Part shown: positions 4,175-64,000 of the stretch, one piece after another
Numbering within the stretch: position 1 is the first letter of the stretch
Layout: each line of letters starts with the position of its first letter
From: Saccharopolyspora gloriosae
GTDB taxonomy: Bacteria; Actinomycetota; Actinomycetes; Mycobacteriales; Pseudonocardiaceae
Reading direction: 5' to 3'
Length of the DNA stretch: 64,000 nucleotides
Assembly (NCBI RefSeq): GCF_014203325.1
Contig: NZ_JACHIV010000001.1
Span: 6,449,501-6,513,500 of the forward strand
Notes under the pieces: model-generated
The model's database searches: none
The model's input: the letters and a program-made list of their open reading frames with translations, nothing else
What the model was told of the DNA's origin: nothing
Made by a program: the position numbers and the translations under genes

Positions 4175-5104
4175 TCAGCGCTGGTGACGTTCGATCAGTT
4201 GGGCGAAGCCGTCGAGGTGCCGGGCCAGTCCGTACTCGAAGAGGGCGTCGACGTCGTCGACCACCGCTTCGGGCATCGTCGCCAGCAGCGGGAACCGGTC
4301 GCCGCCGACCATCCGCCGCGCGCGCGGCCGGTGTGCCGCTCGCCAGTTCTCCAGGGGCACGCCGGTGCTCTGCTCGGCGTCGGTCTCGTCCGCCGCCGAT
4401 GCCGCGGCGGAGAGGACGAAGGCGTGCAGCGTCAGCGCTTCGCGCACCCGCGTCTCCATCGGGAGCCCGAGCCCGTCGAGCGCGCGCAACGTCCACTCGG
4501 TGTGCGCCATCATGTGCGGCGCGAAAGTCGGCCGGGTGAAGGACACGACCCGCGGCAACCAGGGGTGCCGGCGGAACAGCCGCCGCCCCTCCCGGGCGAT
4601 GTGCTCCAGCTTCGCCCGCCACCCCGGTGGCCCGTGCGCGGGCAGCACGATCTCGCCGAACGCGCGGTCCGCCATCCGGAACAGCAGTTCGTCCTTGCCC
4701 GCGACGCTGCGGTAGAGCGACATCGGCCCGACGCCGAGGTGGGCGGCGAGCCGCCGCATGGACACCGCGTCGAGCCCTTCCGCGTCGGCGATGGCGATGG
4801 CCGCGTCGAGCAGCCGCTCCCGTTTCTCGGGGGGCTCGTCGGCGCCGGGTCCGGGTGCGGGCGAGCTCGGCTGCCTGCGCGGGCGCGCGCTGACCACGGT
4901 GCCCGAGCCGCTCCTCGGTTCGACGAGGCCTTCTTCCCGGAGCACCGCGGCGGCCTTGGTCGCGGTCGCGACCGCCACTCCCCAGCGCCGGGCGAGGTGC
5001 CGGATCGACGGCACTCGATCGCCGGGCCCCAGCTCGCCGGATTCGATGCGCTTCCGGATCTCGGCCGCGATCGCGCGGTACGGCGGGCTCGTCCCCGGTG
5101 CCAT
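4175..5104 (-). CDS. Chimeric regulator: GntR winged helix fused to TetR repressor
   Basis: 309 residues with two DNA-binding domains. Residues 6-72 form a GntR-type winged helix (YRAIAAEIRKRIESGELGPG, then PSIRHLARRWGVAVATATKA and a GSGTVV wing). After a Pro/Gly linker, residues 92-140 form a TetR helix-turn-helix (RERLLDAAIAIADAEGLDAV, MRRLAAHLGVGPMSLYRSVAGK). The rest resembles the TetR C-terminal ligand domain. It is transcribed away from the FAD monooxygenase gene at 5304, the usual layout for a ligand-responsive repressor of that enzyme. Two CTAGT direct repeats lie between them. Such GntR-TetR fusions exist in actinobacteria; the ligand is unknown. Confidence 0.87.
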   Translation of the reverse strand: MAPGTSPPYRAIAAEIRKRIESGELGPGDRVPSIRHLARRWGVAVATATKAAAVLREEGLVEPRSGSGTVVSARPRRQPSSPAPGPGADEPPEKRERLLDAAIAIADAEGLDAVSMRRLAAHLGVGPMSLYRSVAGKDELLFRMADRAFGEIVLPAHGPPGWRAKLEHIAREGRRLFRRHPWLPRVVSFTRPTFAPHMMAHTEWTLRALDGLGLPMETRVREALTLHAFVLSAAASAADETDAEQSTGVPLENWRAAHRPRARRMVGGDRFPLLATMPEAVVDDVDALFEYGLARHLDGFAQLIERHQR

Positions 5105-60933: not shown

Positions 60934-61704
60934 TCAGGCCCGGACGTGGTCGCCGAGCATCGGCCGCACCAGCTCCCGCAGGCGCCGGGACGGTTCGATG
61001 CCCAGCTCCCGGTCCAGCAGCTGCTCGTAGCGCCGGTAGTGGCGCAGCGCCTGCGCCGGGTTCGACTGCTTGAGCAGCACCTCCACCACCGCGCAGTGCG
61101 CGGTCTCGCGGAACGGTTCGACGACGGTCGCCGCCTGCGCGACCTCCAGCGCCGTCGCCAGCTGGCTGGACTGCACCAGCCGCTCCGCGGCGATCTCCAG
61201 CGCGTGCACCTGGAGCTGCTGGAGCCGTTCCCGCTCGGCCAGCACCCAGTCCTCGTACCAACCCGGCAGCAGCGGGTCCTGCTTGGCCAAGGTGTGCCCG
61301 ATCGCGGCCCAGTCCGCGATCGGCTCCACCGGGTCCTCCCGCAGCAGCCGCTCCCCCGTGGACGTCAGCTCGTGCACGTCCACCGAGAGCTGGCCGCCCA
61401 GTTCGACCTCCGCGCCGTTGCCGACGATGGCTCCCGGCACCCGCCTGCGCACCCGCCACAGCGTGGTCCGCAGGTTCGCCAGCGCGCTCTGGTCGTCGTT
61501 GGCCGGCCACAGCGTTCCGGCGACGAGGTCCCGCTGCGTGCGCCCGCGCAGCGCCAGCAGCGCCAGCAGCCGCTGCCCGTTGCTGGAGACGGGCACCCCG
61601 ACGCCGTCGCAGTGCAGCGACCACCCGCCGAGCAGTGCCAGCCGCAACCGCTCCCCGGCGTGCGGCCGTGGGAGCGGGATCGGGCGCGCAGGTCCCTCGC
61701 TCAT
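60934..61704 (-). CDS. SARP-type (AfsR/DnrI/RedD) transcriptional activator
   Basis: 256 residues. An N-terminal OmpR-type winged helix (LRLALLGGWSLHCDGVGVPV, then QRLLALLALRGRTQRDLVAG and ALANLRTTLWRVRRRVPG) is followed by a bacterial transcriptional activation domain made of TPR-like helices (EIAAERLVQSSQLATALEVA, YRRYEQLLDRELGIEPSRRL). Such regulators typically activate natural product clusters. It lies 116 bases downstream of the M50 protease gene in the same direction. ATG at 61704 follows GGGGGA. Confidence 0.9.
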   Translation of the reverse strand: MSEGPARPIPLPRPHAGERLRLALLGGWSLHCDGVGVPVSSNGQRLLALLALRGRTQRDLVAGTLWPANDDQSALANLRTTLWRVRRRVPGAIVGNGAEVELGGQLSVDVHELTSTGERLLREDPVEPIADWAAIGHTLAKQDPLLPGWYEDWVLAERERLQQLQVHALEIAAERLVQSSQLATALEVAQAATVVEPFRETAHCAVVEVLLKQSNPAQALRHYRRYEQLLDRELGIEPSRRLRELVRPMLGDHVRA

Positions 61705-61820
61705 GGTTCCCCCTTCGTCCGGCAAAGACCGGCCGCACCCGAGGCGCGGCCCGTCACCGATGGCGTCGCAGGCGTGACGGCGTGCCGTTACAGGCCTACG
61801 CACCGTGACAGATCCGCAGG

Positions 61821-63317
61821 TCACGAGGTGCGGAGGCCGAATCGGTTGCGGGTGACCGGGGCGCGGTGGCGCGGCACGTGCCGGGGGTGCTTGCGGCGGT
61901 ACCACTGGCCGATCTTGCCCCCGATGCGGATGGCGAACGCGATGCCGCCCATCCACGGCAGCAGCAGCACGAACAGCGACAGGACGGCCACCACCCCGGT
62001 GAGCACGTGGCCCTGCGCGAATCCGTCGAGACCCCAGAGCCAGAACTCGTGCCCGCGTTCCAGCGCCGTGCCCAAGTAGCGGGGGATCCGCACGAACAGC
62101 GTCAGCAACGACAGGAACAGCACCGGCACCACGATCGCCACCCAGCAGGTGACCAGCAGCCGGACCTGGGGGCGCAGACCGGCGCCGACCTGCTCCCCCG
62201 GCTGCTGCTTGCCGAGCAGTTTGCGCACGAACGGCCGCACGTGCGCGAACAGGTTCGGCACCCCCACCAGGTCGCCGAGGATGTAGTAGCCGTCCAGCCG
62301 GATCAGCGGCAGCAGCTGCTGGAGCATCTGCATGTGGCTGAGCACGATGAACACCGCCAGCGGTGCGAAACCCGTCGCCCAGAACAACCCGGCCATGCCG
62401 ATGATGTAGATCGCGTTGAAGTACAGGCCGCCCAGGTCGGTGCGCAACCGGCCGGCCCGGTCGAGCCGGTAGGCGTCGGTGACGTTGGTGTAGAACGCCG
62501 GGAAGATCAGCAGGATGCCGAAGCCGATCGCGCCGGGCCTGCCGCCGCCGTAGTGGCACCCGGCGGCGTGCCCGCTCTCGTGGAACAGGGTGGACGTGAC
62601 GATCAGCAGGATCAGCACGAGCACGTGCGCCGGGTCGCCCACGGACGCGTGGAACGCCGCGTCCAGCGAACCGGAGGCCACCAGCGCCACGTCCGCCACG
62701 ACCATCGCGCACAGCACGGTGACCACGATGACCGGCTGGAACAGCGGGGCCAGCACGGCGGCCAGCACGCGCACCACGCCCGCGGGCAGCAGCACGCCGC
62801 GCATCGCCAGCGAGATCAGCGGGTCCGCCTTCGGCGCCTCCGCCACCGGTTCGTCCAGCTCCGCCACGCCCAGCTTGTGCAGCTTGTCGCCGATCAGGAA
62901 ACCCACCCCGGCCGCGGAGATCTCCGAGCCGCAGGCCGCGGTGACCCGCTCGGCGATCTCGCGCAGGTCCCGGTGCCCGTCGATCTGCGAGGCGACCAGG
63001 TGGAGGAGCTCGGACACCAGGATCATCTGCCCGTCGGCGCGGGCGATGAGGAACCGCGGATCGGTGTACCCGGCGCCTTCGTACCGGCCGCACAACGAGA
63101 CGCCGTCCGCGAGCTGCGGCACGGAGCGCTCGTCCACCTCGGCGATCTGGGCGGGGTCTCCGGCGGTGGTGGCCGCCGGCGCGACCTCCGCGCCGGTGCG
63201 GTCCGCGTCCGGCCGCTCGGGTGCGGCGCCTTGCGCGGGCACGACGGGCAGGGCGGGCTCGGTGGGAAGGTCGGGCTCGGCGGGTGCCGCCCGCCCTACC
63301 TGGGTCGCTTCTGACAT
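61821..63317 (-). CDS. Membrane M50 metalloprotease with N-terminal PqqD-like region
   Basis: 498 residues. After a Pro/Ala-rich 65 residues, 66-155 resembles the PqqD/RRE winged-helix fold seen before peptide zinc metalloproteases (QLADGVSLCGRYEGAGYTDP, GFLIGDKLHKLGVAEL). Then follow several membrane helices with the zinc motif HESGH (246-250) in STLFHESGHAAGCHYGGGRP and a third-ligand region LLPLIRLDGYYILGDL (Asp342). It is thus a site-2-protease-like enzyme. Genes for three related small peptides lie directly upstream. I infer a role in leader processing or export of those peptides. ATG at 63317 follows GGAGGGGA. Confidence 0.88.
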   Translation of the reverse strand: MSEATQVGRAAPAEPDLPTEPALPVVPAQGAAPERPDADRTGAEVAPAATTAGDPAQIAEVDERSVPQLADGVSLCGRYEGAGYTDPRFLIARADGQMILVSELLHLVASQIDGHRDLREIAERVTAACGSEISAAGVGFLIGDKLHKLGVAELDEPVAEAPKADPLISLAMRGVLLPAGVVRVLAAVLAPLFQPVIVVTVLCAMVVADVALVASGSLDAAFHASVGDPAHVLVLILLIVTSTLFHESGHAAGCHYGGGRPGAIGFGILLIFPAFYTNVTDAYRLDRAGRLRTDLGGLYFNAIYIIGMAGLFWATGFAPLAVFIVLSHMQMLQQLLPLIRLDGYYILGDLVGVPNLFAHVRPFVRKLLGKQQPGEQVGAGLRPQVRLLVTCWVAIVVPVLFLSLLTLFVRIPRYLGTALERGHEFWLWGLDGFAQGHVLTGVVAVLSLFVLLLPWMGGIAFAIRIGGKIGQWYRRKHPRHVPRHRAPVTRNRFGLRTS

Positions 63318-63335
63318 GGTTCCCCTCCAGGAAAA

Positions 63336-63371
63336 CCGGCCGGGGACGGAAGAGTTCCCGTCCCCGGCCGG
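63336..63371 (-). terminator. Terminator/attenuator between peptide B and the protease gene
   Basis: On the minus strand CCGGCCGGGGACGG and CCGTCCCCGGCCGG (63358-63371, 63336-63349) form a perfect 14-bp stem with an eight-base loop followed by TTTTCC. Most transcripts from the peptide genes should stop here, and the protease would be expressed at a lower level. Confidence 0.8.
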
Positions 63372-63393
63372 CCGGCACGTCCGATATCCGCTT

Positions 63394-63561
63394 TTACTTT
63401 CCGTATCCGTACTGGTTGGCCAGCGCGAGTGCGTCGCCGCCGACGGCGGTCGCGACGGCGATGTTCACCGGCACGTTGACGTTGACGTTGACGAGGCCGC
63501 CCAGGGCCTCCCGGGCGGGCAGCAGCTCGGCCGGTTGCGCGGCCAGCTCCAAGCGGTCCAT
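63394..63561 (-). CDS. Precursor-like peptide B
   Basis: 55 residues starting MDRLELAAQ. It shares AELLPxREALGG (11-22) with peptide A. The following segment alternates Val and Asn (LVNVNVNVPVNIAVATAV at 23-40), a pattern favouring beta structure, and it ends GGDALALANQYGYGK. It is too short for ordinary gene calling, but the ATG at 63561 has GGAGG six bases upstream and third-position GC is high. I do not recognise the family. Similarity to peptides A and C, which are consecutive, argues that it is real. Confidence 0.82.
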   Translation of the reverse strand: MDRLELAAQPAELLPAREALGGLVNVNVNVPVNIAVATAVGGDALALANQYGYGK

Positions 63562-63580
63562 TCATCCTCCTCAGTGGTGT

Positions 63581-63619
63581 CCGGCCGCGCGCCACTGGTT
63601 TTCAACGGCGCACGGCCGG
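63581..63619 (-). terminator. Stem-loop between peptides A and B
   Basis: CCGGCCGCGCGCC (63581-63593) and GGCGCACGGCCGG (63607-63619) pair over 13 positions with one mismatch that becomes a G-U pair in the minus-strand RNA. It lies just before the peptide B ribosome site. Confidence 0.6.
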
Positions 63620-63637
63620 GAACTCGGTCAGGACAGG

Positions 63638-63823
63638 TCAGTCCTGGCTGAGGTCGACGTGCTGGTTGGCGGTGGCCCCGGCGTCGCCGCCCAGGGCGAC
63701 GGCGGTGGCGGTGTTCTGCGCGGCCACCAGGCCGAAGTACTCGTTGACGTTGAAGCCGCCCAGCGCTTCGCGCTTCGGCAGCAGCTCGGCGGAGACTTGC
63801 AGCTCGGAGATCTCGAACTTCAC
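63638..63823 (-). CDS. Precursor-like peptide A
   Basis: 61 residues, GTG start at 63823 with AGGAG six bases upstream. N-terminus MKFEISELQVS, then AELLPKREALGG (12-23), NVNEYFGLVAAQ, and TATAVALGGDAGATANQHVD followed by LSQD. The shared blocks with peptide B are AELLPxREALGG and a tail GGDAxxxANQ. No cysteine is present in either. I read the first half as a leader ending at Gly-Gly and the rest as a core, which is inference. Family not recognised. Confidence 0.85.
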   Translation of the reverse strand: MKFEISELQVSAELLPKREALGGFNVNEYFGLVAAQNTATAVALGGDAGATANQHVDLSQD

Positions 63824-63860
63824 GATGCGCTCCTACGAAGTAGAGATGGTGAGAACAGGT

Positions 63861-63944
63861 CGCGGCGCCAACGCCGCGGGAAAGGTGCCTCGGGGCAGGG
63901 GCCCCGAGGTCACCCCACGGCCCTGACCACGGAGTCCGTGGTCA
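63861..63944 (-). other. Three consecutive hairpins between peptides C and A
   Basis: CGCGGCG-CCAA-CGCCGCG (63861-63878), CCTCGGGGC-AGGG-GCCCCGAGG (63888-63909, one extra base) and TGACCACGGA-G-TCCGTGGTCA (63924-63944). Three stable stems in 84 bases, all before the peptide A ribosome site. Possible processing or stability elements. Confidence 0.65.
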
Positions 63945-63953
63945 CTGACCAGG

Positions 63954-64000
63954 TCAGCCCTGGTCGAGGTCGATGTCCTGGTGGGCGGTCGCGCCGGCGT
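63954..64000 (-). CDS. Precursor-like peptide C, N-terminus beyond window edge
   Basis: Only the last 15 codons are visible: AGATAHQDIDLDQG before the TGA at 63954. It aligns with the end of peptide A (AGATANQHVDLSQD), so at least a third paralogue lies at the edge. The codon before the visible Ala ends in AC, which would allow the Asp seen in A. Confidence 0.75.
   Translation of the reverse strand, partial: AGATAHQDIDLDQG

Follow-up and report, generated by a model that had tools for sequence, protein, structure and literature searches.

What is made, and by what route, from three small tandem genes that lie beside a membrane protease and a regulator of the SARP type at the right-hand end of a 64,000-nucleotide stretch of the Saccharopolyspora gloriosae genome (the whole stretch is called the window below)? 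The genome is a single contig of 6.83 Mb, the window ends ∼312 kb short of the contig end, and we also used the extended stretches L007 and L008. We consider it fairly probable that the locus is a minimal ribosomal-peptide export cassette consisting of leader-tagged peptides, a DapP/MpaP-like protease of the M50 type fused to a RiPP recognition element (RRE; RiPP, ribosomally synthesized and post-translationally modified peptide), and a SARP, in which the protease would bind the tag, cut, and release the core with no cassette-encoded tailoring. This reading draws on the leader family, its co-occurrence with the protease, the apparent RRE homology, the intact protease motifs, the predicted stem-loops, and flanks in which no tailoring gene was recognised. 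The genes run on the minus strand in the order precursor C (broken off by the window end), precursor A, precursor B, protease, and SARP, with the following features:

63954..64000, minus strand: 3' end of the gene for precursor peptide C, 62 aa (complete in L007 at 4455-4643)
63824..63953, minus strand: intergenic stretch between C and A with strong stem-loops (folded as 63824-63960)
63638..63823, minus strand: precursor peptide A, 61 aa, GTG start
63562..63637, minus strand: stem-loop of 17 bp between peptides A and B
63394..63561, minus strand: precursor peptide B, 55 aa, ATG start
63318..63393, minus strand: stem-loop of 17 bp between peptide B and the protease gene
61821..63317, minus strand: M50/site-2-type membrane metalloprotease, 498 aa, with HESGH at 246-250, LDGYY at 341-345, and a PqqD-like RRE at ∼95-152
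60934..61704, minus strand: SARP-type regulator, 256 aa, with a BTAD domain (Pfam) at residues 145-247

A first-pass annotation, made from the letters of the window, had described three related small genes sharing an AELLPxREALGG block. Peptides A, B, and C all carry it, the third now being completed to 62 aa. The same annotation assigned to all three a GGDAxxxANQ tail, which is correct for A and B, with C reading GGDAGATAHQ instead, and its remark that the cores lack Cys holds for each of the three peptides, which terminate in Gly (C), Asp (A), and Lys (B). When a profile was built from 15 precursors of other classes, only the three window peptides (E = 7e-11 for B, 0.002 for C, and 0.004 for A) scored below E 1 among 689 open reading frames (ORFs) of 30-130 aa from the window, L007, and L008 (ORFs common to the window and L007 entering twice), with the next ORF at E 1.1, and the relationship is thus beyond chance. 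The core of peptide B, LVNVNVNVPVNIAVATAVGGDALALANQYGYGK, aligns to the family core LVNANVAAPVNAAVAANVLSDGSVAYANAEQ. Between three species, peptide B (3 pairwise comparisons, 49 codons) showed 20 nucleotide differences, all synonymous, and peptides A and C showed many nonsynonymous changes between the same species, mostly within the core. A change from AGATA to AEANA has occurred in parallel in peptides A and C of congener L033 relative to the window peptides, which suggests that these paralogues may have undergone gene conversion.

We found no named family into which the peptides would fall. The first-pass annotation had raised the prospect of a match to a known structural protein family; none appeared when peptides A and B were compared with Pfam at E up to 1, and an NCBIfam scan of the same two gave one chance match only, to B (E 0.075). 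On these scans the precursors appear to fit no Pfam or NCBIfam family beyond chance, and their own family, although widespread, is apparently unnamed; the open-licence literature yielded no description of it, most subscription papers lying beyond that search. With peptide B as query, the three peptides described here were the only ones in their own genome below E 0.2, and one further match (E 0.25) lay inside a 404-aa frame; an own-genome precursor whose core differs strongly might escape such a query. AlphaFold2 placed one helix at residues 33-50 of peptide B (five sequences; predicted local distance difference test, pLDDT, 50.6, a low-confidence model), and this predicted helix speaks weakly against a beta product.

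For the neighbouring gene, the earlier description was of a membrane protease with an HExxH motif and a PqqD-like region at its N-terminus, and both parts were borne out. HESGH begins at residue 246, and profile-profile comparison of residues ∼95-152 with PqqD gave a probability of 93.7% (E 1.8e-7 for one comparison), as against less than 0.4% for each of four control slices of the same protein; of five further proteases of the family that were scanned, two had PqqD matches below threshold. All 19 proteases examined, the window protease included, contain HExGH, and the LDGY-type motif and other columns are invariant in a 16-row alignment. Scored against NCBIfam, the window protease reached 111.7 bits with the daptide protease model NF041824 (cut-off 300) and 48.7 bits, over residues 197-347 only, with the epipeptide protease model NF058609 (cut-off 225). 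The protease of Saccharopolyspora sp. NFXS83 is 91% identical to it, and the window protease is the only one of this family found in its own genome. The viral contigs searched held no relatives, and a PADLOC scan of the protease, the SARP, and peptide A gave no match.

Whether the small genes accompany the protease elsewhere was a point on which the first-pass annotation had made its reading depend, and they do. Counting its own genome throughout, the protease had matches at E up to 0.001 in 15 of 60 relatives (three of them weak and distant); at E up to 1e-40, the genomes with a match numbered 25 of 396 from the phylum and 24 of 150 from the taxonomic family. Among 57 protease genes called in 56 larger loci, 48 had a tagged small gene on the same strand at most 3.5 kb upstream (45 by regular expression, 46 by leader profile), a count in which many of the profile's training leaders come from counted loci. 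The profile was built from 27 training leaders, one of them from a test locus (L020, the same place as L048). At E up to 0.1 it recognised 51 of 238 upstream ORFs and covered 32 of 34 test loci. Among controls it recognised 2 of 227 ORFs on the antisense side, 2 of 146 downstream ones, and none of 188 that were downstream and antisense. Three weak matches, L021-L023 (scores 43-56), are not among the 34 test loci, and no protease was obtained from L030. A cruder regular expression applied to 64 loci matched 88 of 423 upstream, 12 of 280 downstream, and 24 of 378 antisense ORFs. The cores of the family comprise short Asn/Val/Ala-rich forms, Gly-rich forms that we take to be PGRS-like, and forms of ∼200 residues beside longer proteases.

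Each precursor gene is followed by a strong predicted fold. The stretch between peptide B and the protease gene folds at -45.9 kcal/mol, with 0 of 200 shuffles as stable, and all five congeners have a stem at this position too (z -1.9 to -3.7). The stretch between A and B folds at -40.5 kcal/mol (z -4.9), and for 63824-63960 the z value was -3.7, with 1 of 200 shuffles as stable. Of 30 loci whose precursor-protease gap measures 45-330 nt, 25 have an uninterrupted stem of at least 10 bp there. This placement suggests that precursor is made in excess over protease.

The proposed sequence of events is as follows. The three precursors would consist of a leader tag, E-L-L-P-x-R-E-A-L-G-G, and short variable cores; the PqqD-like N-terminal RRE of the M50 protease would bind the tag, and the membrane-seated protease would cut at or just past it, perhaps at Gly-Gly, and release the core outward without a cassette-encoded tailoring enzyme. 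MpaP is described as performing such a cut-and-release role for daptides (PMC10036551), and EpeP is thought to cut and export its peptide (PMC10885120). The strong stem-loops may hold precursor transcripts above the protease transcript, the SARP would turn the cassette on, and the freed peptide would be secreted and act extracellularly, most likely as a surface peptide that may self-associate or as an antagonist. Several observations weigh against this account. The protease falls far short of both NCBIfam equivalog cut-offs, its best PDB profile match (PqqD) was at chance level (E 0.066), and its AlphaFold2 model (two sequences) had a pLDDT of 38.9; the peptide B run was also low-confidence, and the putative RRE assignment therefore rests on sequence profiles. 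Nine of the 57 protease genes had no tagged same-strand upstream gene called (one of the nine, L109, has tagged genes on the opposite strand). As for the folds, z fell below -2 in just 19 of 30 precursor-protease stretches, and a further precursor gene that the motif missed sits in at least 3 of all 30 (L036, L037, and L133). Finally, tailoring enzymes might be encoded elsewhere in the genome.

That last point is the core of one alternative, which we regard as unlikely: that the peptides are true RiPPs modified by enzymes encoded elsewhere, the protease performing only the last step as in daptides and epipeptides. In its favour, the closest resemblance of the window protease is to the daptide protease, and the genome has two other places with PqqD domains away from the locus. 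The first-pass annotation took the peptides to be RiPP-like precursors processed by the protease or by a partner to the right; the common leader and the RRE-M50 fusion are consistent with the former, and the right-hand partner did not materialise when the sequence was extended, as the right flank held a MacRS pair and unrelated genes and no recognised maturase, which is the basis for calling the cassette minimal. A LuxR-type response regulator follows peptide C on the right, then a MacS histidine kinase (NCBIfam, 454.6 bits, cut-off 300), a GGDEF protein, an AI-2E-family transporter, two genes without a Pfam match, a GT87 protein, a second GGDEF protein, and inositol-phosphate synthase; to the left of the SARP lie a PEP-utilising (PTS enzyme I-like) protein and a DUF2339 protein. 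No tailoring gene was recognised among these 11 flanking genes and the SARP, and no dedicated transporter in the cassette. Nor was a RiPP tailoring enzyme recognised, judged by eye and with most members not family-scanned, in the 20 listed protein groups that recur at most 6 kb from the protease in at least 3 loci; these comprise regulators, GGDEF proteins, synteny of related genomes, and a group of SufC-looking ABC-type ATPases (5 loci). Absence of Cys from 59 of 69 distinct cores also argues against this alternative.

By sequence, the locus does bear the general mark of RiPPs, small precursor genes that share a leader and lie next to the gene of a protein with an RRE. The known systems differ in their parts. 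Daptide clusters (PMC10036551) share with our locus several short precursors with an N-terminal motif and, in DapP/MpaP (NF041824), an N-terminal RRE fused to a site-2-type protease, but their leader is ELExMEAP with an invariant C-terminal Thr, whereas here it is ELLPxREALG with ends in G, D, or K. Daptide clusters also encode DapB, an oxidative decarboxylase, an aminotransferase, and a methyltransferase, none of which was found among the 11 flanking genes and the SARP. Membership in the daptides was rejected on the leader motif, the C-terminal Thr, the Dap enzymes, and the bit score of the protease; judged by its sequences, the cassette is a leader-guided peptide maturation variant distinct from daptides. 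Epipeptides have a comparable M50 membrane protease (EpeP/YydH/LiaK, NF058609), thought to cut and export the peptide (PMC10885120), but a radical SAM epimerase lies beside it, and none was found among the flanking genes scanned here. In TMcins, according to a preprint (PMC13252029), an S2P-clan protease, TmcP, takes off the leader in a small cluster; TmcP, however, is a DUF3267 protein and the TmcA product retains a transmembrane helix, whereas the protease here has a putative RRE. A lanthipeptide was rejected, the three peptides being free of Cys and the scanned flanks free of a lanthionine synthetase. Chaplins and curli are short N/V/A/Q-rich peptides and alike in some respects, but the peptides here have a leader tag and no recognisable signal peptide; a chaplin or curlin was rejected on the Pfam scan of peptides A and B.

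A SARP beside the protease had been predicted, and the Pfam BTAD score (63.8 bits, cut-off 22.1) agrees. Together with the MacRS pair it raises the alternative of peptide signalling, in which MacS senses the cut peptide, or the peptide works via the SARP, and genes for development or antibiotics are thereby triggered. In 5 of 5 congeners the gene order is conserved from the kinase and regulator through the three peptides, a counterpart of C included, to the protease and SARP; G004 and G005 are near-identical at the locus, so that the number of independent cases is below five. A second genus supplied three loci, each with two recognised peptides alongside the kinase (61-64% identity), regulator (87-89%), protease (55-57%), and SARP (65-69%), and MacRS in Streptomyces influences antibiotics and morphology (PMC9739842, PMC10345050). 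MacS is common without the cassette, however: it matched in 27 of 41 relatives and 23 of 25 genomes of the family searched. Of the genomes with a match, 21 lie outside the genus, and none of these had the leader motif within 1.5 kb of MacS (a distance on each side too short to reach the protease even in the window locus); separate searches found the protease absent in 16 and far away or on another contig in 5. A candidate MacR box pattern had no match in L007 at up to 3 mismatches and one match in the window with 3 mismatches, about what chance would give. MacRS, being common in the family without leader motif or protease nearby, was therefore rejected as a defining part of the cassette and is a neighbour of it. 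SARP relatives lie at most 6 kb from the protease in 10 of 54 protease-bearing loci (56 loci examined), namely five congeners, three of the second genus, one other family genus with tandem cassettes, and one of another class. We hold signalling to be quite improbable. Site-2 proteases often work by regulated intramembrane proteolysis, and the peptides could thus be degraded substrates or regulators of the protease with no secreted product at all; the frequent presence of several precursors per protease, the conserved leader on very different cores, and the RRE make this the least credible alternative, and a very remote one.

The preferred reading, that of an export cassette, leaves the diversity of cores to be described. 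In L038 (6065-15161), three successive protease genes each have their own tagged genes, with a SARP gene on the other strand, forming tandem cassettes. Gly-rich PGRS-like precursors with the same leader occur in eight loci (L040, L041, L044, L046, L124-L126, and L137), which also have a related GxDxI-type repeat protein at most 6 kb from the protease. In the five loci of another Gly-rich cassette type (L045, L141, and L144-L146), a protein of ∼196-215 aa recurs close to the protease. Three of the 5 congeners (L040, L041, and L044) have a second, Gly-rich cassette.

Protease genes longer than 510 aa numbered 21, and by phmmer the C-terminal extension of 13 of these is related to four-Cys proteins encoded beside the protease in five other loci:

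L109, 5761-6453: four-Cys protein beside the protease
L111, 5439-6164: four-Cys protein beside the protease
L118, 9169-9855: four-Cys protein beside the protease
L042, 624-1496: four-Cys protein beside the protease
L038, 10832-11431: four-Cys protein beside the protease

The N-termini of these proteins are signal-like to judge by eye, and on that basis they may be secreted. Such an extension is lacking from the window protease. When 659 proteins were searched with a profile of cores only (15 rows, leader residues remaining in two), 7 of 57 proteases matched at E 0.001 to 0.33, at P-x-N-x-A-V-A-x-N ... A-L-A-x-Q, and two 41-aa ORFs with strong scores proved to be shortened precursors. Against a likeness between extension and core, three other proteins score in between (E 0.017, 0.036, and 0.27) and the separate four-Cys proteins score E 2.3 or worse; as the extensions are also related to each other, the matches amount to one weak signal. 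A more speculative proposal, to which we give little credence as a whole, is that the cassette is a protease-coupled builder of extracellular peptide assemblies: tagged subunits would be trimmed and exported, the four-Cys domain, in many members fused or adjacent and bearing N-x-A-V-A-x-N ... A-x-A-x-Q, an element resembling one in the subunits, would nucleate or anchor them, and core swaps on one tag would yield different surface materials.

What the first-pass annotation observed is confirmed, and its interpretation is supported in part. One short tag and one protease seem sufficient to mature very different peptides across Actinomycetota, whether Asn/Val-rich and as short as 55 residues, PGRS-like, or repetitive and 200 residues long. 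Should the tag be bound and cut as proposed, this would be a simple leader-guided export route without tailoring enzymes, the motif and profile would serve to locate many unannotated small genes, and the surface or extracellular output of these organisms would become a testable question.

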